64,000 nucleotides of DNA, from positions 1-64,000 of the forward strand of contig JAFRRR010000127.1 of assembly GCA_017428035.1 (NCBI GenBank), read 5' to 3'. The first letter of the stretch is position 1. Each line of letters starts with the position of its first letter. The translations under genes were made by a program, and so were the position numbers. Source of the stretch: Bacteroidales bacterium (lineage in GTDB: Bacteria; Bacteroidota; Bacteroidia; Bacteroidales; UBA932). A model generated the notes under the pieces. The model searched no databases, had not been told where the DNA came from, and saw only the letters and a program-made list of their open reading frames with translations. Shown here in pieces: positions 4,456 through 12,596 of the stretch.

Positions 4456-4767
4456 TTACTCCTTGACGGTGGTGGTGCGATTCACCGGGAGAGAAAAGAT
4501 TATTCCCTTGGCCTCGTCGGCTATGCCGGCTTCCTTGTAAACAGCCTTCTCCACGTCGTCTTTGATGCTCTTGGGCACCAGAATCATAACCAACTCCTTG
4601 TCGGGCTGGATTTTGATATTGAAGAATTCCTCAGACTCGGGATTGGCGCTGCCGCGGGCGCGAAGAATTGTGCCGCCTTTTGCTCCGGCAGCACGGGCCG
4701 CCTCCATTACATTCTGTGAAAAACCTGCATTGACTACGCAGACCACAAGTTCATATTTATTTTCCAT
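4456..4767 (-). CDS. P-II-like signalling protein (103 aa)
   Basis: A 103-residue protein with the ferredoxin-like P-II fold: an N-terminal strand 'YELVVCVVNAGFSQNVMEAA', a Gly-rich turn 'AGAKGGTILRARG' and a later 'ELVMILVPKSIKDDVEKAV' helix. P-II trimers bind ATP/ADP and effectors at subunit clefts and gate transporters through the T-loop. The segment equivalent to the T-loop has no tyrosine, so classical uridylylation is unlikely. It lies 1 nt downstream of a second P-II-like gene and close to a DUF1538 membrane protein. This suggests it regulates that protein (inference). No glnA or amtB is adjacent. Confidence 0.8.
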   Translation of the reverse strand: MENKYELVVCVVNAGFSQNVMEAARAAGAKGGTILRARGSANPESEEFFNIKIQPDKELVMILVPKSIKDDVEKAVYKEAGIADEAKGIIFSLPVNRTTTVKE

Positions 4768-4768
4768 A

Positions 4769-5137
4769 TTATTCGGTTTTGACGGTTCGTTTATCGTTGC
4801 TCAAAAAGCCATATACCAGCGTGCCGATGACACTGGTGAGCGGAATTGTGAAGGCCAGGCCTTTATAATCCTTTCCCTTGAGAAACTGTTCCTGCATCAC
4901 AGCGAACAAATCGTCCGCCTCGTCGGCCCTCACAAGACTCACAATCAGAGTCTTCGGGCGCTCTGCTAGACCCAGGTAATCCAATATGAGATGGGTTGTA
5001 CCCTTGGCCGGAACAGTGAGCTGAAGGTTGGCCTGATGAGACTGGATTATGCTCTGATAGTAGGCCGCCTTGTCGTTGTGTACAATGGCCATAAGCATCT
5101 CCAGTTTAACGGGGGCTATATTGTTTTTATTCTCCAT
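4769..5137 (-). CDS. Second P-II-like protein (122 aa), divergent
   Basis: A 122-residue protein with the same strand-helix-strand order as P-II-like proteins ('LEMLMAIVHNDKAAYYQSII', then a hydrophobic strand around 'PKTLIVSLVRADEADDLFAV'). It lacks the Gly-rich turn seen in its neighbour. The C-terminus carries a short hydrophobic stretch, 'SVIGTLVYGFL', which could contact the membrane. It starts 3 nt after DUF1538 and ends 1 nt before the 103-residue P-II-like gene. The two probably act together, possibly as a heteromer or as two independent sensors for the DUF1538 protein (inference). Confidence 0.65.
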   Translation of the reverse strand: MENKNNIAPVKLEMLMAIVHNDKAAYYQSIIQSHQANLQLTVPAKGTTHLILDYLGLAERPKTLIVSLVRADEADDLFAVMQEQFLKGKDYKGLAFTIPLTSVIGTLVYGFLSNDKRTVKTE

Positions 5138-5140
5138 ATG

Positions 5141-6697
5141 CTATTCGAAATAGATGATTTGGTCGTCGGCGGCAGCCAGGATACGGCGGATGGCGGCACT
5201 CTCTCTCTGGCGAACGCTCAGAACCGACTTAAATCCGAGTGTCTGGATAGTGATGAGCGGCGTCATAGCCACCATAGCCACCACGCCAAATGCAAAGTCC
5301 ATCACAGCGCTCTCGCCCTGCATTGTGGCGCAGGCGCCAATCACCAGCGGCAGAATGAAACTGGAGGTCAGCGGACCGCTGGCAACACCGCCCGAGTCAA
5401 AAGCAATGGCGGTGTAGAGCTTAGGCACAAAGAACGAGAGTCCCAGCGAAATCAGATATCCGGGCACCAGATAATACAACAGGGAGAAGCCGAAGTATAC
5501 CCTGAGCACCGAGAGTCCTATGGAAATGCCGACGCCTATCGAGAGAGCCAGCATCATCTGTCGCTTGGAGACTTCGCCTCCGGTAATTTCTTCTACCTGG
5601 CCATTCAGAACGTGCACGGCCGGCTCGGCCAGAACAACCACCATACCTATCACAAAGGCCAGCGCAATCAGCAGCCAGGGGCTGTACTCTGCCATCTGCA
5701 GGCCAATTTTATAGCCGATAGGCATAAAGGCCATTGCCACGGCAGAGAGAAAGACAACCAGGCCGATAAGGGTATAAACGATACCGATAATAATCTTGAT
5801 AATCTTGCTGATGGGAAGTTTGAGCACAGTGAACTGAAGCACCACGAAAAATAGGAACACCAGCCCCAGAGAGCGGAGCACATCCCATAGATTGTCTCTG
5901 AAAAGGTCCCATACACCCTCGGAGAGTATATTCTCCATAGAGTAGTCGGGAATTGCATACGCGAGGTCGCCGCTGGCACTGATCGAGAGCAGCAGGACAG
6001 CCGCAATAGGGCCCACAGAGCAGAGGGCGATGAGGCCGAAACTGTTTTCACTGGCGTTGCGTCCACCCACAGAGAGGGCGATGCCGACACCCAGGGCCAT
6101 TATAAACGGGACCGTGATGGGGCCGGTGGTCACACCGCCGGAGTCAAATGAGAGCGGCAGGAAAGAGCCTCTGCCTGAGCTTAAAAGCAAGGAAGCCAGG
6201 CAGAAAAGTATCATATAGAAGAACAGCAGGATGCTGGTCAGATCTGCGTGGAAAATAATCTTGAGCACACCAAGGAGCAGGAACAGGCCAACTCCAAGGC
6301 CAACCGAGAGCAGCAGAGCCGTGGGACTTATCACAGCCTTGACCTGGCCGGCCAGCACCGCAAGGTCGGGCTCGGCTATGGTTATCACAACTCCCATAAG
6401 GAAACTGACGATCAGCAGTACCCCAAGCCGCCTGGACTGAGTCAGGCCCTCACCCACGTGCTGGCCCATAGGGGTCATTGCCATATCGGCACCTACATTA
6501 AAGAAACCTATACCCACAATAAGCAAAACTGCGGCAATTGCAAACACGCCCAACTCTTTGGGAGAGATATCAACCCAGGGGGTAAGTGACAACAGTAACA
6601 CCAATATGCTCACGGGGAGCACCGATGTGAGCGCCTCTTTGAGTTTGTCGCGCAGCGCTTTGCTTAATTCCGAAAAAATAGAACCAGATTTAGCCAT
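5141..6697 (-). CDS. DUF1538 integral membrane protein with internal duplication (putative transporter)
   Basis: A 518-residue polytopic membrane protein. I chose the start at 6697 (Met-Ala-Lys-Ser-Gly-Ser) because a -7 promoter box lies just upstream; a longer reading frame to 6823 would run into the divergent chorismate mutase gene. The protein is an internal repeat. 'AEPDLAVLAGQV' in half one matches 'AEPAVHVLNGQV' in half two, and 'FDSGGVTTGPITVPFI' matches 'FDSGGVASGPLTSSFI'. Such paired motifs, likely re-entrant and with conserved Asp and Glu, resemble a transporter with two symmetric units. Family function is undescribed. It heads a run with two P-II-like genes and YitT. Confidence 0.88.
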   Translation of the reverse strand: MAKSGSIFSELSKALRDKLKEALTSVLPVSILVLLLSLTPWVDISPKELGVFAIAAVLLIVGIGFFNVGADMAMTPMGQHVGEGLTQSRRLGVLLIVSFLMGVVITIAEPDLAVLAGQVKAVISPTALLLSVGLGVGLFLLLGVLKIIFHADLTSILLFFYMILFCLASLLLSSGRGSFLPLSFDSGGVTTGPITVPFIMALGVGIALSVGGRNASENSFGLIALCSVGPIAAVLLLSISASGDLAYAIPDYSMENILSEGVWDLFRDNLWDVLRSLGLVFLFFVVLQFTVLKLPISKIIKIIIGIVYTLIGLVVFLSAVAMAFMPIGYKIGLQMAEYSPWLLIALAFVIGMVVVLAEPAVHVLNGQVEEITGGEVSKRQMMLALSIGVGISIGLSVLRVYFGFSLLYYLVPGYLISLGLSFFVPKLYTAIAFDSGGVASGPLTSSFILPLVIGACATMQGESAVMDFAFGVVAMVAMTPLITIQTLGFKSVLSVRQRESAAIRRILAAADDQIIYFE

Positions 6698-6703
6698 ATC
6701 ACA

Positions 6704-6711
6704 CAAAGATA
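6704..6711 (-). promoter_or_regulatory. -7 promoter box of the DUF1538 operon
   Basis: On the minus strand the sequence reads TATCTTTG, an exact Bacteroidota -7 box (TAnnTTTG). Its 3' end is 6 nt from the start codon at 6697, so the predicted transcript start falls at or beside the ATG. The message may be leaderless. It shares a 40-nt gap with the divergent aromatic operon. Confidence 0.55.
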
Positions 6712-6737
6712 GCGAAAAAATTATCATCTTTGCAGAT

Positions 6738-7985
6738 ATGAGTGACTTTCGCAGCAAAATAGATGAGATTGACGCACGTATGGCGCGGCTTTTCGAAGAG
6801 AGGATGGCCGTGGTAGAGTGCATCGCTCAGGAAAAGAAAGCCTCTGGCCGTCCCGTGGAAGACCTCGAGAGGGAAAAATCTATGATTGAAAAGCGTTGCA
6901 GCGAGATTTCCGACGAACGGCTAAAAGGCTATTACGCCGCTTTTCTGCGCAGTGTAATAAGCGTTTCCAAGAACTATCAGAGTGACCTGATTCACGAGGC
7001 CAAAATGCCCTGTCACGACATAATTATAGAACGCGGCAGCCTGTCGTCGGCAGGAAGGCTTTTGGGCATCTGCGGCGGCAAGGTGCTGGTTGTGACCGAC
7101 AGCGGAGTGCCGGCAGAATATGCAAAGGCAGTGGCCGCTTCTATGCAGGGCCGCGCCAGCGAGGTGCTGATACACACTTTTGAGCAGGGTGAAACCAGTA
7201 AAAACCTGGCCACATATAGCGATATTGCCCAGGCGCTGGTCTCCGGCGGCTTTACCCGCAGCGATGCCGTGGTGGCCGTTGGCGGCGGTGTTGTGGGTGA
7301 CCTGGCCGGTTTTGTGGCAGCCACATTTATGCGGGGCATCCGTTTCTACAATGTCCCCACCACTCTTCTCTCGCAGGTAGACTCTTCAATAGGCGGCAAA
7401 ACCGCAATTGACTTTGGCGGAGTAAAGAATATCATAGGGGCTTTCCATATGCCCGTTAAGGTGCTGATAGACCCCGATACCCTGGCGACATTGCCGGCAA
7501 GGCAGTTGCACAACGGCTTGGTGGAAGCCATCAAGATGGGCGCAACCAGCGACGCCTCTTTGTTTGAACTGATAGAGAATTCCACTGACTTGCTGGCCGA
7601 TGCCTCTGAGATTATCCGCCTGAGCCTGAATGTAAAGCAGGCTGTAGTGTGCGCCGATCCCAAAGAAAAGGGGCTGCGCCGAGTACTGAACTTTGGCCAC
7701 ACGCTGGGCCACGCCATAGAGGCCTCCTGCGGCGGCAGATACATCCACGGGGAGGCGGTGGCGATAGGGATGCTGCCGTTTGCCGACGAACCCGCCAGAA
7801 GCCGCATCCGCCGCGTCCTTGAAAAATACGGTCTGCCGACCTCTTGCGATATGGATGCAACCGCCATCCGTGAACTTATATCCCACGACAAGAAGGCATC
7901 CGGGAGCGAAATCACAGTGGTGCGCGTGAGCGAGATTGGCAGTTTCAGCTTCGAAAAGATCAATATCCAAGATTTGGCAATATGA
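6738..7985 (+). CDS. aroB: Chorismate mutase (AroQ class) - 3-dehydroquinate synthase fusion
   Basis: A 415-residue two-domain enzyme. Residues 1-85 form an AroQ-type chorismate mutase. By alignment with the E. coli mutase, the active-site residues are all present: Arg5, Arg22, Lys33, Asp42, Arg45, Glu46, Ser77 and Gln81. From about residue 95 on it is dehydroquinate synthase, which makes dehydroquinate from DAHP using NAD and a metal. It has 'GGGVVGDLAGF', 'PTTLLSQVDSSIGGKTA', the metal-site Glu in 'GLVEAIKMG' and His residues in 'NFGHTLGHAIE' and 'HGEAVAIGM'. The start at 6738 is chosen because the mutase domain begins there; an upstream in-frame ATG at 6558 would overlap the divergent DUF1538 gene. 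First gene of the aromatic operon. Confidence 0.93.
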   Translation: MSDFRSKIDEIDARMARLFEERMAVVECIAQEKKASGRPVEDLEREKSMIEKRCSEISDERLKGYYAAFLRSVISVSKNYQSDLIHEAKMPCHDIIIERGSLSSAGRLLGICGGKVLVVTDSGVPAEYAKAVAASMQGRASEVLIHTFEQGETSKNLATYSDIAQALVSGGFTRSDAVVAVGGGVVGDLAGFVAATFMRGIRFYNVPTTLLSQVDSSIGGKTAIDFGGVKNIIGAFHMPVKVLIDPDTLATLPARQLHNGLVEAIKMGATSDASLFELIENSTDLLADASEIIRLSLNVKQAVVCADPKEKGLRRVLNFGHTLGHAIEASCGGRYIHGEAVAIGMLPFADEPARSRIRRVLEKYGLPTSCDMDATAIRELISHDKKASGSEITVVRVSEIGSFSFEKINIQDLAI

Positions 7986-9088
7986 GCAACATCCTTGGCA
8001 AAAATATCACACTGACGTTGTTTGGCGAGAGCCACGGCAGCGCAATCGGAGCCGTCCTGGACGGTATGCCCTGTGGCATTGAGGTGGACGAGAGCTTTAT
8101 TGCAGATGCCCTTTCGCGCCGCAGACCCCGCGGCAGCGGAGAGACCGCCCGCCGCGAAGCCGACAATTTCAAGATTGCGAGCGGCGTGTACAACGGTTTC
8201 ACCACGGGTGAACCCATCTGCATTATTATAGAAAACGGCGACACACGCAGCGGTGACTACGAAGCCAACCGCTACCTGGCCCGCCCCTCTCACGCCGATT
8301 ATGTGGCTCACATTGTGCACAAGGGTTTTGAAGACTGGCGCGGCGGGGGGCATTTCTCCGGCCGTCTCACTGCACCGATAGTGGCTCTTGGCGCCATTTG
8401 CCGCAAGGCGCTGGAAGGCATCGGCATCACTGTCGGCACCCATATTCTGGAGTGCGGCGGCGTCTGCGACCAGAGTTTCAATGCCGTGGATGCAACCGTC
8501 CTCAAAAGGCAGATAGCCGAGGTGGAAAGCAGCCAGTTTCCCCTGCTCTCTCCCGTTCAGGAAAAGATGGAGGCAGCCATAGAGGCCGTCCGTATGGACA
8601 GCGATTCTATTGGCGGGACCATCCAGACTGCAGTTTGCGGCCTCCCCACCGGCGTGGGCGAGCCGTGGTTCAGCAGCCTTGACGGCGCACTCGCAAACGC
8701 AATGCTCTCTATCGGCGGCATCAAGGGCATAGAATTCGGCCTTGGATTCGGCTTCAAAGAATCTACCGGCAGCCGCTGCAACGACGAATTCTACAGCGAA
8801 GACGGTCGCGTAAAGACCTATTCCAACAACAATGGCGGCATCAACGGCGGCTATTCCAACGGAATGCCGGTGGTGTTCAACTGTGCGGTAAAGCCCACCC
8901 CTTCCATTGCCAGGGAGCAGCGCACCATAGATATGCGGACCAAAGAGAACGCTATTATAAAAGTAACCGGCCGTCACGATCCGGCAATTATCCGCCGCAT
9001 CTGTCCGGTGGCCAGTGCAATGACCGCCATTGTGCTTTGCGATATGCTCAAAGGGGCTTTTTCAAACGATATATTTCTGAAAAAATGA
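7982..9088 (+). CDS. aroC: Chorismate synthase
   Basis: A 368-residue enzyme that converts 5-enolpyruvylshikimate-3-phosphate to chorismate with reduced FMN, the last common step of aromatic biosynthesis. The family signatures are intact: 'GESHGSAIGAVLDGMPCG' near residue 12, 'RGSGETARREADNFKI' near 45, 'DWRGGGHFSGRLTAP' near 118, and 'TYSNNNGGINGGYSNG' near 280. Length is normal. The ATG overlaps the stop of the upstream fusion gene (ATGA), so translation is probably coupled. Confidence 0.97.
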   Translation: MSNILGKNITLTLFGESHGSAIGAVLDGMPCGIEVDESFIADALSRRRPRGSGETARREADNFKIASGVYNGFTTGEPICIIIENGDTRSGDYEANRYLARPSHADYVAHIVHKGFEDWRGGGHFSGRLTAPIVALGAICRKALEGIGITVGTHILECGGVCDQSFNAVDATVLKRQIAEVESSQFPLLSPVQEKMEAAIEAVRMDSDSIGGTIQTAVCGLPTGVGEPWFSSLDGALANAMLSIGGIKGIEFGLGFGFKESTGSRCNDEFYSEDGRVKTYSNNNGGINGGYSNGMPVVFNCAVKPTPSIAREQRTIDMRTKENAIIKVTGRHDPAIIRRICPVASAMTAIVLCDMLKGAFSNDIFLKK

Positions 9089-9513
9089 AACTGCTTGTCC
9101 TGAACGGCCCAAATCTGAATATGCTGGGCATCCGCGAGCCGGCCATCTACGGCAAGGCCACCTATGCCAATCTGGTGCATATGATAGAAGATTATGCGCG
9201 CGAGCGTGGCTTCGAAGTGGAATGCTGTCAGAGCAACCACGAAGGGGCGCTGGTAGACAAGATCCAGCAGGCATATTTCGACGGCGTTGACGGCATTGTG
9301 TTCAATCCTGGTGCATACACCCACACCAGCATAGCACTGCTGGATGCCCTCAAGGCTGTGGGAATTCCCTGCGTAGAGGTCCATATCAGCGACGTCTCCC
9401 AGCGAGAGGATTTCCGTCAGACAAGTTATATACGCCAGGCCTGCAAAGCCTCTGTGATTGGCCGCGGCCTGGAGGGTTATATTGATGCAATAGATATTTT
9501 GCTCCAGAAATGA
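9085..9513 (+). CDS. aroQ: Type II 3-dehydroquinate dehydratase
   Basis: A 142-residue class II dehydroquinase that makes 3-dehydroshikimate. The start at 9085 overlaps the aroC stop (ATGA) and gives the canonical N-terminus 'MKLLVLNGPNLNMLG'. Catalytic features seen are Tyr22 in 'EPAIYGKATYANL', the loop 'CQSNHEGALVDKIQ', 'IVFNPGAYTHTSIALLDAL' with the catalytic Asn-Pro-Gly and His, and 'VEVHISDVSQREDFRQ'. It is normally a dodecameric cytoplasmic enzyme. The symbol aroQ refers here to the dehydratase and not to the AroQ-class mutase domain of the operon's first gene. Confidence 0.96.
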   Translation: MKLLVLNGPNLNMLGIREPAIYGKATYANLVHMIEDYARERGFEVECCQSNHEGALVDKIQQAYFDGVDGIVFNPGAYTHTSIALLDALKAVGIPCVEVHISDVSQREDFRQTSYIRQACKASVIGRGLEGYIDAIDILLQK

Positions 9514-10727
9514 GTATTGTTTCCATAGCTAAAGGTGTCGCCCGCGGCGTGGCTGTGGTTCCTCCTTCGAAGAGCTACGCACACCGCCTGCTGCTGGCCG
9601 CATTCCTTAGCGGGAAAAACGTTGCCATAGACAATGTGGATCCCAGCAACGACATCCTTGCCACTATGGACTGCATAGCCTCCCTTGGCGGGAAAGTCAA
9701 CCTTATAGGATGCATCGCCTCCGTGGAGTGCGGCACTGCCGCCGGTGATGCTGTGCTGCCCTGCCGGGAAAGCGGCTCCACGCTGCGGTTTATGATTCCC
9801 GTGGCGCTGGCGCTTCGCGGCAAGGCCCATATGACCGGCACCGCCAAACTGTTTTCACGAGGTCTGGGCGAATACGAAAAGATTTTTGCCAGCCAGGGAA
9901 TCTCCTACACCCTTACGGAGGATAGCCTGGTGGCCGAGGGCCGTCTGCACAGCGGTCTATATCAAATAGACGGCGGCATCAGCAGTCAGTATATTACAGG
10001 CCTGCTCTTTGCCCTGCCGCTGCTGGAGGGCGACAGCGAGATCTGGATCACTCCGCCAGTACAGAGCCGTCCGTACATAGATATCACAATCGATGTCCTG
10101 CGGATGGCCGGCATCAAAGTGGACACCAGCGGCAACCACCTGTTCATCAGCGGCGGCCAGCGGTACAACCTACCCGACTGCAGCGTAGAGGGCGACTGGT
10201 CAAATGCCGCTTTTCTGGATATCTACAACCATATTGGCGGGGACGTTACGCTGCTGGGGCTCAAGCCCCACTCACTGCAAGGCGACAAGCGCTACCGCCG
10301 GCTGTTCAGCCAGCTGGAAAAGGGCTGGTGCGAGATTAACCTTGGCAACTGCATTGACCTGGGGCCGGTGCTGTTCACCCTGGCGGCCATCAAGCACGGA
10401 GCCCGATTCATAAATACCGCACGCCTTCGAATCAAAGAGAGCGACCGCGTGGCCGATATCCTGTGCGAGCTGGAAAAGGCAGGCGTCACTGCCACAGTGA
10501 GCGACAATGCAGTGGAGATTCGCCCCATCCCCAAGCAGAGACGCGCGTCACTTGAAAAGGAAAATATCCTTTATGACAGCCACAACGACCATCGGCTGGC
10601 AATGAGTCTGGCCGCGCTGGCCACTATTTCCGGAGCAAGACTGCAGGGCGCTGAGTCTGTAGCCAAAAGTTACCCCGGATTTTTCAACGAGCTCAAGCGG
10701 CTCGGAATAGAGATTAAATATGAATAA
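9510..10727 (+). CDS. aroA: 3-phosphoshikimate 1-carboxyvinyltransferase (EPSP synthase)
   Basis: A 405-residue two-domain enzyme that joins phosphoenolpyruvate to shikimate-3-phosphate. Diagnostic motifs are 'VVPPSKSYAHRLLLAAFL' near residue 12 (substrate-binding Lys-Ser), 'CRESGSTLRFMIPVALAL' near 85 (the usual 'GNxGTxxR' region here being Glu-Ser-Gly-Ser-Thr-Leu-Arg), 'GGISSQYITGLLFALP' near 155, 'RIKESDRVADI' near 310 and 'SHNDHRLAMSLA' near 355. Slightly shorter than the E. coli enzyme (427). The ATGA overlap with the upstream dehydratase gene shows the same operon packing. It overlaps tyrA by 8 nt. Confidence 0.96.
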   Translation: MSIVSIAKGVARGVAVVPPSKSYAHRLLLAAFLSGKNVAIDNVDPSNDILATMDCIASLGGKVNLIGCIASVECGTAAGDAVLPCRESGSTLRFMIPVALALRGKAHMTGTAKLFSRGLGEYEKIFASQGISYTLTEDSLVAEGRLHSGLYQIDGGISSQYITGLLFALPLLEGDSEIWITPPVQSRPYIDITIDVLRMAGIKVDTSGNHLFISGGQRYNLPDCSVEGDWSNAAFLDIYNHIGGDVTLLGLKPHSLQGDKRYRRLFSQLEKGWCEINLGNCIDLGPVLFTLAAIKHGARFINTARLRIKESDRVADILCELEKAGVTATVSDNAVEIRPIPKQRRASLEKENILYDSHNDHRLAMSLAALATISGARLQGAESVAKSYPGFFNELKRLGIEIKYE

Positions 10728-11571
10728 AGAAGACAAGATACTGATAGTGGGCCTGGGTATGATAGGCGCTTCGTATGCAGAAAAACTGCACTCCTGCGGC
10801 TATTTTACCGGCGGAATCTCCCGCCGTGAGTCAACCGTGGAAAAGGCTCTTGAAGAGAAGATAATTGACACTGGCACAGTGAATGTAACAAAAGAGTTTG
10901 TGAGCCAGTTCGACATTATTGTGTTCGCTCTGTACCCCAAACAGTTCATTGATTGGATAGAGCAATATCAGGATTGCTTCAAGAGCGGCGCGCTGATTAC
11001 AGATGTAACCGGCGTAAAAGGGGCCATTGTGAGCCGCATTCAGGATATGCTCCGCAGCGATGTGGAGTTCATTGCCGCACACCCGATGGCCGGCCGCGAA
11101 CTATCCGGCATAGACAACCGTTGCGCCAAAGTGTTCGAAGGGGCCAACTACATAGTGACCCCCACCCCGGCCAACAGCCAGAAAGCAATAGACACTGCCT
11201 GTGAGTTGGGGCAGACGCTTGGCTTCGGCAAAATCTCTATCCTGACTCCAGAAGAGCACGACGAGATGATAGCCTTCCTGTCGCAGCTGACCCACTGCAT
11301 CGCAGTGAGCCTGATGTGCAGCAAGGACTCAAAGCATCTGGTGGACTATACCGGCGACTCGTTCCGCGACCTTACCCGAATCGCCAATATCAACGAGAAT
11401 ATGTGGCCGGAACTGTTTATGCTCAACAAAGAGGAACTGCTAAGCCAGATGGAACTCTTTGAGAGCGAGTTCAACCGTCTTAAAGAGGCAATTGCCGCCG
11501 GCGACGAGACCACTATAAAAGAAATGATGATCACTTCTACCGAAAGAAGACAATTATTCAATAAGAAATGA
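10720..11571 (+). CDS. tyrA: Prephenate dehydrogenase
   Basis: A 283-residue NAD(P)-dependent enzyme converting prephenate to 4-hydroxyphenylpyruvate for tyrosine. The Rossmann motif 'VGLGMIGASYAEKL' is at residue 10. 'AAHPMAGRELSGID', which holds a substrate-binding His, lies near 115, and a helical C-terminal dimerization region follows. There is no fused chorismate mutase or ACT domain. It overlaps aroA by 8 nt and the following DAHP synthase by 4 nt. The chorismate mutase it needs is at the N-terminus of the first gene of the same operon. A separate prephenate dehydratase is not in the window. Confidence 0.93.
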   Translation: MNKEDKILIVGLGMIGASYAEKLHSCGYFTGGISRRESTVEKALEEKIIDTGTVNVTKEFVSQFDIIVFALYPKQFIDWIEQYQDCFKSGALITDVTGVKGAIVSRIQDMLRSDVEFIAAHPMAGRELSGIDNRCAKVFEGANYIVTPTPANSQKAIDTACELGQTLGFGKISILTPEEHDEMIAFLSQLTHCIAVSLMCSKDSKHLVDYTGDSFRDLTRIANINENMWPELFMLNKEELLSQMELFESEFNRLKEAIAAGDETTIKEMMITSTERRQLFNKK

Positions 11572-12596
11572 ATCTGGAAATTAAGCGTGAATTGCCCTCT
11601 GCAGAGGAAATCAAACAGAGATTCCCGCTGCCCGAAGGCCTGGACAAAGTGAAAAAGGCAAACGACGACGCCATTAAAGATATAATCTGCGGCCGAAGCA
11701 ACAAGTTCCTGCTTATAATAGGTCCTTGCAGTGCCGACCGAGAAGATGCAGTGCTGGAATATGTCACCCGGCTGCGCAAGGTGCAGGAAAAGGTGGCCGA
11801 TGTAATCACCATCGTGCCGCGCATCTACACCAACAAGCCCCGCACCACCGGCGAGGGATACAAAGGTATGCTGCATCAGCCCGATCCACATAGCCAGGCA
11901 GATATGCTGGGCGGCCTCATCGCCATCCGCAATATGCATATGAGGGTTCTCTCCGAGACCGGCTTCTCCGGCGCCGACGAGATGCTCTATCCCGAAAATC
12001 ACACTTATCTTTCCGATATGCTCTCTTATGTGGCCGTGGGCGCCCGCAGCGTAGAGAGCCAGATTCACCGCCTTACCGCCAGCGGCCTGGATATCCCTGT
12101 TGGTATGAAAAATCCCACCAGCGGCGATATGAACGTTATGCTGAATTCCATCCACGCCGCGATGCTTTCGCACACATTCATCTACCGCGGCTGGGAGGTC
12201 ACCAGCAAGGGCAACCCGCTCACCCACGCCATTCTGCGCGGCAGCGTCAGCAAAAACGGCCGAAACATCCCCAACTATCACTACGAGGATATGATGCTGC
12301 TGTGCGAGAAGTATGCAGAGAGCCACCTGCCCAACCGCGCCCTGATTGTAGATACCAATCACTCTAATTCAGGTAAGCAGTATCTGCAGCAGATCCGCAT
12401 TGCCAAGGAGGTGCTGCACTCTGCCCGTCACAGCAGCGACATCGGAGCCCTGCTCAAGGGTCTGATGATAGAATCCTATCTGGAAGACGGATGCCAGAGC
12501 GACGGCGCCGTGTACGGCAAATCCATCACCGACCCCTGCCTGGGCTGGGAAAAGACCGAAAAGCTAATACTGGAAATCGCCGACCTCAGGTCCTAG
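11568..12596 (+). CDS. 3-deoxy-7-phosphoheptulonate (DAHP) synthase, AroF/G/H type
   Basis: A 342-residue type I-alpha DAHP synthase, the entry step of the pathway, condensing PEP with erythrose-4-phosphate. Motifs seen are 'IIGPCSADREDAVLEY' near residue 50 (metal Cys), 'PRIYTNKPRTTGEGYKG' near 85, 'GARSVESQIHRL' near 150, 'GMKNPTSGDMNVM' near 175 and 'VDTNHSNSGKQY' near 260. AroG-like enzymes are feedback-inhibited by an aromatic amino acid; which one is not clear here. It is the last gene of the operon and converges with the serine hydrolase gene with a 4-nt overlap. No terminator is visible. Confidence 0.93.
   Translation: MNLEIKRELPSAEEIKQRFPLPEGLDKVKKANDDAIKDIICGRSNKFLLIIGPCSADREDAVLEYVTRLRKVQEKVADVITIVPRIYTNKPRTTGEGYKGMLHQPDPHSQADMLGGLIAIRNMHMRVLSETGFSGADEMLYPENHTYLSDMLSYVAVGARSVESQIHRLTASGLDIPVGMKNPTSGDMNVMLNSIHAAMLSHTFIYRGWEVTSKGNPLTHAILRGSVSKNGRNIPNYHYEDMMLLCEKYAESHLPNRALIVDTNHSNSGKQYLQQIRIAKEVLHSARHSSDIGALLKGLMIESYLEDGCQSDGAVYGKSITDPCLGWEKTEKLILEIADLRS

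Follow-up and report, generated by a model that had tools for sequence, protein, structure and literature searches.

The window, the 64,000-nucleotide stretch of DNA analysed here, carries at positions 6738 to 7985 of the forward strand a single open reading frame (ORF) of 415 residues that translates with no internal stop and joins an AroQ-type chorismate mutase (CM) to 3-dehydroquinate synthase (AroB; Table 1). Pfam CM_2 matches residues 5–81 (E 9.3e-17, 61.5 bits against a cut-off of 27), DHQ_synthase residues 147–258 (E 2.4e-45) and DHQS_C residues 260–387 (E 1.3e-32). The NCBIfam aroB equivalog TIGR01357 is reached with 336.5 bits (cut-off 305), in agreement with the initial annotation of a complete AroB. 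The CM domain scores 70.3 bits with NCBIfam CM_mono_grmpos, just below the cut-off of 71.2, and PDT has no Pfam match within the 415-residue protein. The steps are non-consecutive, as that annotation had also pointed out, AroB being step 2 of the pathway and CM acting on chorismate.

The fused enzyme and its operon

The eight residues named earlier as an intact mutase active site (R5, R22, K33, D42, R45, E46, S77, and Q81) were found at the positions given and are invariant in an alignment of 12/12 fused homologues. We take their E. coli equivalents to be R11, R28, K39, D48, R51, E52, S84, and Q88. R5 to E46 align with the E. coli mutase motif of PDB 1ECM; S77 and Q81 fall outside the 1ECM-aligned stretch and are paired with their counterparts by E. 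coli numbering and residue spacing. In the AroB domain, R199, D215, K221, K230, N231, E263, K266, K300, R314, N318, H321, H325, and H337 are invariant across the same 12 fusions and presumably correspond to the A. nidulans metal and substrate residues R130, D146, K152, K161, N162, E194, K197, K250, R264, N268, H271, H275, and H287.

An AlphaFold2 model of the fusion protein (42 sequences, single chain; mean pLDDT 93.4, pTM 0.78) places three AroQ-like helices at residues 2–36, 43–55, and 60–85, followed after the linker by AroB. Linker residues 88–91 have pLDDT values <50, and the tether between the domains looks flexible in this model. No sign of rigid CM–AroB coupling was seen in the single-chain model, which cannot show AroQ or AroB dimers. 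The best 50 PDB matches listed in a fold search all have the DHQS (AroB) fold and none is a CM structure; used alone as a query, the CM domain retrieved few experimental structures by sequence similarity (best E 8.4e-05).

The fusion gene heads a tightly packed operon ending at position 12596, in which the ORFs overlap by a few bases at every border in the order CM-AroB, AroC, type II dehydroquinase, AroA, TyrA, and DAHP synthase (aroFGH type). An AroE-AroK gene is absent from the operon, AroE being located elsewhere in the genome. A promoter and terminator scan gave a result close to chance. The divergent neighbors (positions 4456–6823, reverse strand) are consecutive ORFs, one large and resembling a membrane protein, the other two small (122 and 103 aa).

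Table 1. Positions of the fusion domains, the genes of the operon, and the triple fusions of genus g17 (coordinates refer to the window unless a locus is named)
Feature	Position	Strand	Evidence
AroQ-type chorismate mutase (CM) domain, residues 1–87	6738..6998	+	CM_2 match; sole CM detected in the genome; 8 site residues invariant in 12/12 fusions
Interdomain linker, residues 82–94	6981..7019	+	Junction comparison with G204, G114, and Clostridia; pLDDT <50 at 88–91
3-Dehydroquinate synthase (AroB) domain, residues 95–415 and stop codon	7020..7985	+	Pfam DHQ_synthase, DHQS_C; NCBIfam aroB; fold matches to solved DHQS structures
AroC, chorismate synthase; start overlaps the stop of the fusion	7982..9088	+	Pfam, NCBIfam
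AroQ-named type II 3-dehydroquinase	9085..9513	+	Pfam, NCBIfam
AroA, EPSP synthase	9510..10727	+	Pfam E 3.7e-54; NCBIfam aroA 239.6 bits, below cut-off 287.25
TyrA, prephenate dehydrogenase; expected user of CM-made prephenate	10720..11571	+	Pfam PDH_N, PDH_C
DAHP synthase, class I alpha (aroFGH type), without CM	11568..12596	+	NCBIfam aroFGH 253.4 bits, cut-off 173.2
Triple fusions of genus g17	L028:950-3175; L029:2318-4369; L030:3546-5411 (open at contig end)	−; −; −	

Distribution of the fusion and of the associated enzymes

The continuity of the reading frame, with no stop or frameshift between the domains, holds in assemblies of 12 different genomes of the genus, which comprises uncultured Bacteroidales, probably from the rumen. 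The 12 aligned fusion proteins are 56–98% identical to the window protein. An assembly artefact or chance is ruled out because the fusion is one ORF in 12 assemblies down to the lowest of these identities. The fusion occurs in 12/26 genomes of the genus; mutases, as the initial annotation pointed out, are more often fused to DAHP synthase, prephenate dehydratase, or TyrA. We found no two-domain CM-AroB beyond the genus among the matches listed for 395 Bacteroidota genomes (E≤1e-62, 16 with a match) or 393 genomes of the order (E≤1e-72, 9 with a match), nor any among those listed for 398 genomes of the phylum of a Clostridial genome (E≤1e-70, 55 with a match), where one match (G846) runs from position 20 only by crossing stops. 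A search of 199 genomes of the family (E≤1e-10, 179 with a match) listed as CM-covering matches 11 fusions of the genus and one triple fusion (G054). These thresholds and partial lists of matches leave room for weaker or independent fusions elsewhere; CM-AroB as a widespread architecture was rejected, with no further two-domain case among the matches listed outside the genus. Scanning genome contigs with a fusion profile gave five loci, of which two were complete fusions and one was cut at a contig end. Three genomes from other families of the order (G1004, G1188, and G1272; loci L197, L198, and L199) have a profile match from position 19 or 26 across a single TAA, and in these a CM-bearing ORF probably lies directly upstream of AroB as a neighboring ORF.

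PF01817 matched once in the whole window assembly, at the fused domain, and exactly once in 25 of the 26 genomes of the genus, with zero matches in G205 (73% complete); these counts cover mutases of the CM_2 (AroQ) fold, as distinct from AroH-type CM. Judged by its position and frame, the one CM of each genome is joined to AroB in 12/26, to DAHP synthase I beta in 11/26, and to PDT in 2/26. One DAHP synthase-CM gene (G124:C5:14199-14900) has an in-frame TAG in its DAHP synthase part. At E≤1e-10 the fusion profile had one match in the window genome, the fusion itself, and likewise one in 10/11 fusion genomes, with three in G079. Nei–Gojobori dN/dS for seven pairs was 0.00–0.29 for CM and 0.07–0.21 for AroB, and median pN/pS over all 66 pairs was 0.37 and 0.32, respectively, the distant pairs being near synonymous saturation. 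The CM part is under purifying selection. Because no other CM was detected in any of these 12 genomes, the fused domain is very probably catalytically active.

PDT (PF00800) was found in 4/12 fusion genomes (G000, G200, G079, and G193), 8/11 DAHP synthase-CM genomes, 2/2 CM-PDT genomes, and G205. It was not found in 8/12 fusion genomes, namely G033 (99% complete), G113 (97%), G102 (92%), G161 (89%), G091 (88%), G051 (87%), G169 (85%), and G144 (82%). TyrA was present in 11/12 and not found in G051, whose contig has a run of N in the neighboring DAHP synthase. With PDT undetected in 8/12 and TyrA present in 11/12, prephenate in the PDT-less genomes should go to tyrosine only, and we predict from gene content that most fusion genomes make tyrosine without phenylalanine. 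The presence of PDT in 4/12 fusion genomes makes this a tendency within the lineage, not a rule. Phenylalanine or phenylacetate taken from the rumen is a possible source for PDT-less strains.

The PDT of the window genome is separate from the fusion and lies on another contig (C113). In the four PDT-bearing fusion genomes and G205, PDT adjoins a CM-less DAHP synthase I beta, and the five form one clade (100/99). The pair is located at L124:1971-3783 in the window genome, the other loci being L119, L126, L127, and L128. Its DAHP synthases differ little among the five genomes compared with the operon genes, and the pair may move between strains.

Probable origin by loss of PDT-ACT

The closest counterparts of the fusion locus carry CM-PDT-ACT beside AroB. 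In the ten best matches from the 398 Clostridial-phylum genomes, CM-PDT-ACT lies directly upstream of AroB, with AroC downstream, and 10/12 Clostridial loci fetched carry CM-PDT / AroB / AroC, G979 and G600 being without that order. In two of them (G871 and G916) the complete series is present, running CM-PDT-ACT, AroB, AroC, one further gene, dehydroquinase II, AroA, TyrA, and DAHP synthase I alpha; the gene between AroC and dehydroquinase II in G871 (L168:9738-11039, forward strand) is an AroE-AroK (shikimate dehydrogenase-shikimate kinase) fusion by Pfam. CM-PDT / AroB / AroC was also found in G114, from another genus of the same family, and in G204, from the same genus, in which the start of AroB and the stop codon of PDT share bases. 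The assembly of G204, the most important unfused relative here, comprises 430 contigs and has 6% contamination.

Since the window operon otherwise matches CM-PDT-ACT / AroB / AroC, PDT-ACT is missing exactly between CM and AroB. At the junction (YQSDLIHEAK in the window, YQQSLMNGIK in G204) likeness to CM-PDT extends to the last linker residue, after which AroB begins. In 7/12 homologues position 90 is Met, as would be expected of a former AroB start. The linker differs in sequence and length among the fusions, for example in G144 and G051. At the operon place where the window has none, G051 has an AroE-AroK-like reading frame (read by eye); a 540-aa DAHP synthase ORF of this genome was rejected as another fusion, since it holds a run of N.

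In a CM tree (48 rows, 91 columns) the 12 fusions, G204, G114, and 10 Clostridia fall on one side of a branch with support 95/93, and a 100/100 branch separates them from the DAHP synthase-CM domains and triple fusions of the family. The same 24, with four unfused AroBs, group together in an AroB tree of 58 rows (SH-aLRT 100). G051 groups with G204 in both of these trees and is placed outside G204 and the other 11 fusions (90/86) in a seven-gene tree (23 rows, some incomplete). Holding the 12 fusions as one clade costs 7.1 log units and is marginally rejected (p-AU 0.044). Two excisions are possible: the unfused G204 stands among fused genes in all three trees, the junction of G051 differs, and the single clade is marginally rejected. 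On these grounds PDT-ACT may have been excised from CM-PDT / AroB twice in the genus, with G051 apart from the other 11, a scenario about which we are nearly evenly divided. If true, CM-AroB would be a repeated outcome when a lineage drops phenylalanine and keeps tyrosine.

We consider it likely that the gene encodes a bifunctional enzyme, its CM being the sole mutase detected, and that it was formed by excision of PDT-ACT within an operon of Clostridial type. Both halves would be catalytically active: the AroB half would produce 3-dehydroquinate and the AroQ half, the only CM detected in the cell, would produce prephenate, which the TyrA of the operon would turn toward tyrosine and the separate PDT of the window genome toward phenylalanine. 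We infer that an operon of the type CM-PDT-ACT / AroB / AroC / ... / TyrA / DAHP synthase I alpha entered the Bacteroidales genus, where deletion of exactly PDT-ACT would have brought CM and its linker up against the start of AroB. The simplest mechanism would be two independent activities on one chain, with no need for communication between the halves, and the fused CM would have been retained for want of another mutase in the cell.

The initial annotation had suggested a regulatory role like that in mutase–DAHP synthase fusions, in which the CM would bind prephenate, chorismate, or an aromatic product and control AroB. Mutase domains are known to regulate DAHP synthase, and CM and AroB have remained joined in 12 genomes over considerable divergence (down to 56% identity). 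However, the CM originates from the CM-PDT-ACT lineage and not from CM-DAHP synthase in the CM tree, the linker is variable, and control of the aromatic pathway is not known to be exerted usually at AroB. With the ACT domain lost and a linker that looks flexible, given its low-pLDDT stretch at 88–91, the suggestion is without support; we see no evidence for such a role and regard it as very unlikely.

That the CM is instead a decaying, inactive remnant of a lost CM-PDT gene, AroB alone being functional, would fit a gene that is visibly the product of domain loss, but is highly improbable given 8/8 site residues invariant in 12/12 fusions, the low dN/dS, the lack of a second CM_2 domain in all 12 genomes, and TyrA retained in 11/12. 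An origin by loss of DAHP synthase, either from a DAHP synthase-CM-AroB triple fusion, such as those of genus g17 in the same family (G017, G068, and G054), or from DAHP synthase-CM, the other CM of the genus, adjoining AroB, is largely refuted and can be practically dismissed, since both kinds of CM lie beyond the 100/100 branch, the AroB tree sets g17 apart as well, and constraining the fusions with the DAHP synthase-CM of the genus in the CM tree costs 60 log units and is rejected (p-AU 4.4e-5).

Formation by excision of PDT-ACT would account for a fusion that is apparently the product of loss and not of design. Fused enzymes are usually read as evidence of channelling or regulation; here, comparison of relatives that have or lack the middle domain traces a fusion of non-consecutive steps to the loss of the part in between. 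Annotation by best hit would name AroB and overlook the only chorismate mutase of the genome; under the present reading, several of these bacteria are predicted to make tyrosine and not phenylalanine.

Comparison with known aromatic-pathway fusions

The P-protein (CM-PDT-ACT) has a homologous and syntenic CM domain and linker and provides the closest relatives in the CM tree; the fusion differs in lacking PDT and ACT, with the next gene, AroB, in their place. Monofunctional AroB is present entire, its closest relatives being encoded directly downstream of CM-PDT, but in the fusion it carries an N-terminal mutase. DAHP synthase-CM (aroA I beta-aroQ) is the usual Bacteroidales arrangement, found in 11/26 genomes of the genus and listed for B. 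thetaiotaomicron in an excerpt of PMC1173090. It too places AroQ on an early-pathway enzyme, but has another partner and a CM of another lineage that is C-terminal there, whereas the DAHP synthase of the window operon is without CM.

The AroQ-TyrA fusion of enteric bacteria, also described in PMC1173090 (section 22), is an AroQ fusion in the same pathway; TyrA, however, uses the mutase product, whereas AroB acts long before the mutase. An AroL/AroK-AroB fusion, of which an excerpt of PMC7311316 gives an example, likewise has a second aromatic-pathway domain N-terminal to AroB, but the partner is shikimate kinase and not a mutase.

Other combinations occur among the genomes examined. The DAHP synthase-CM-AroB triple fusion of genus g17 is one ORF in three genomes (684–742 aa, and at least 622 aa), and its CM and AroB belong to another lineage in the respective trees. 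In genus g21, AroB has a C-terminal type I 3-dehydroquinase, the next pathway enzyme (L032:2048-3838, forward strand; by Pfam in L032 only). Similar ORFs are present in L031, L033, and L034, and a DAHP synthase-CM ORF lies just upstream in L032, L033, and L034.

No report of a CM-AroB fusion was found among the titles and abstract openings of the literature searched. What is new relative to these systems is that two familiar domains are paired in this way, and that the course of the fusion's formation can be traced with unusual clarity.
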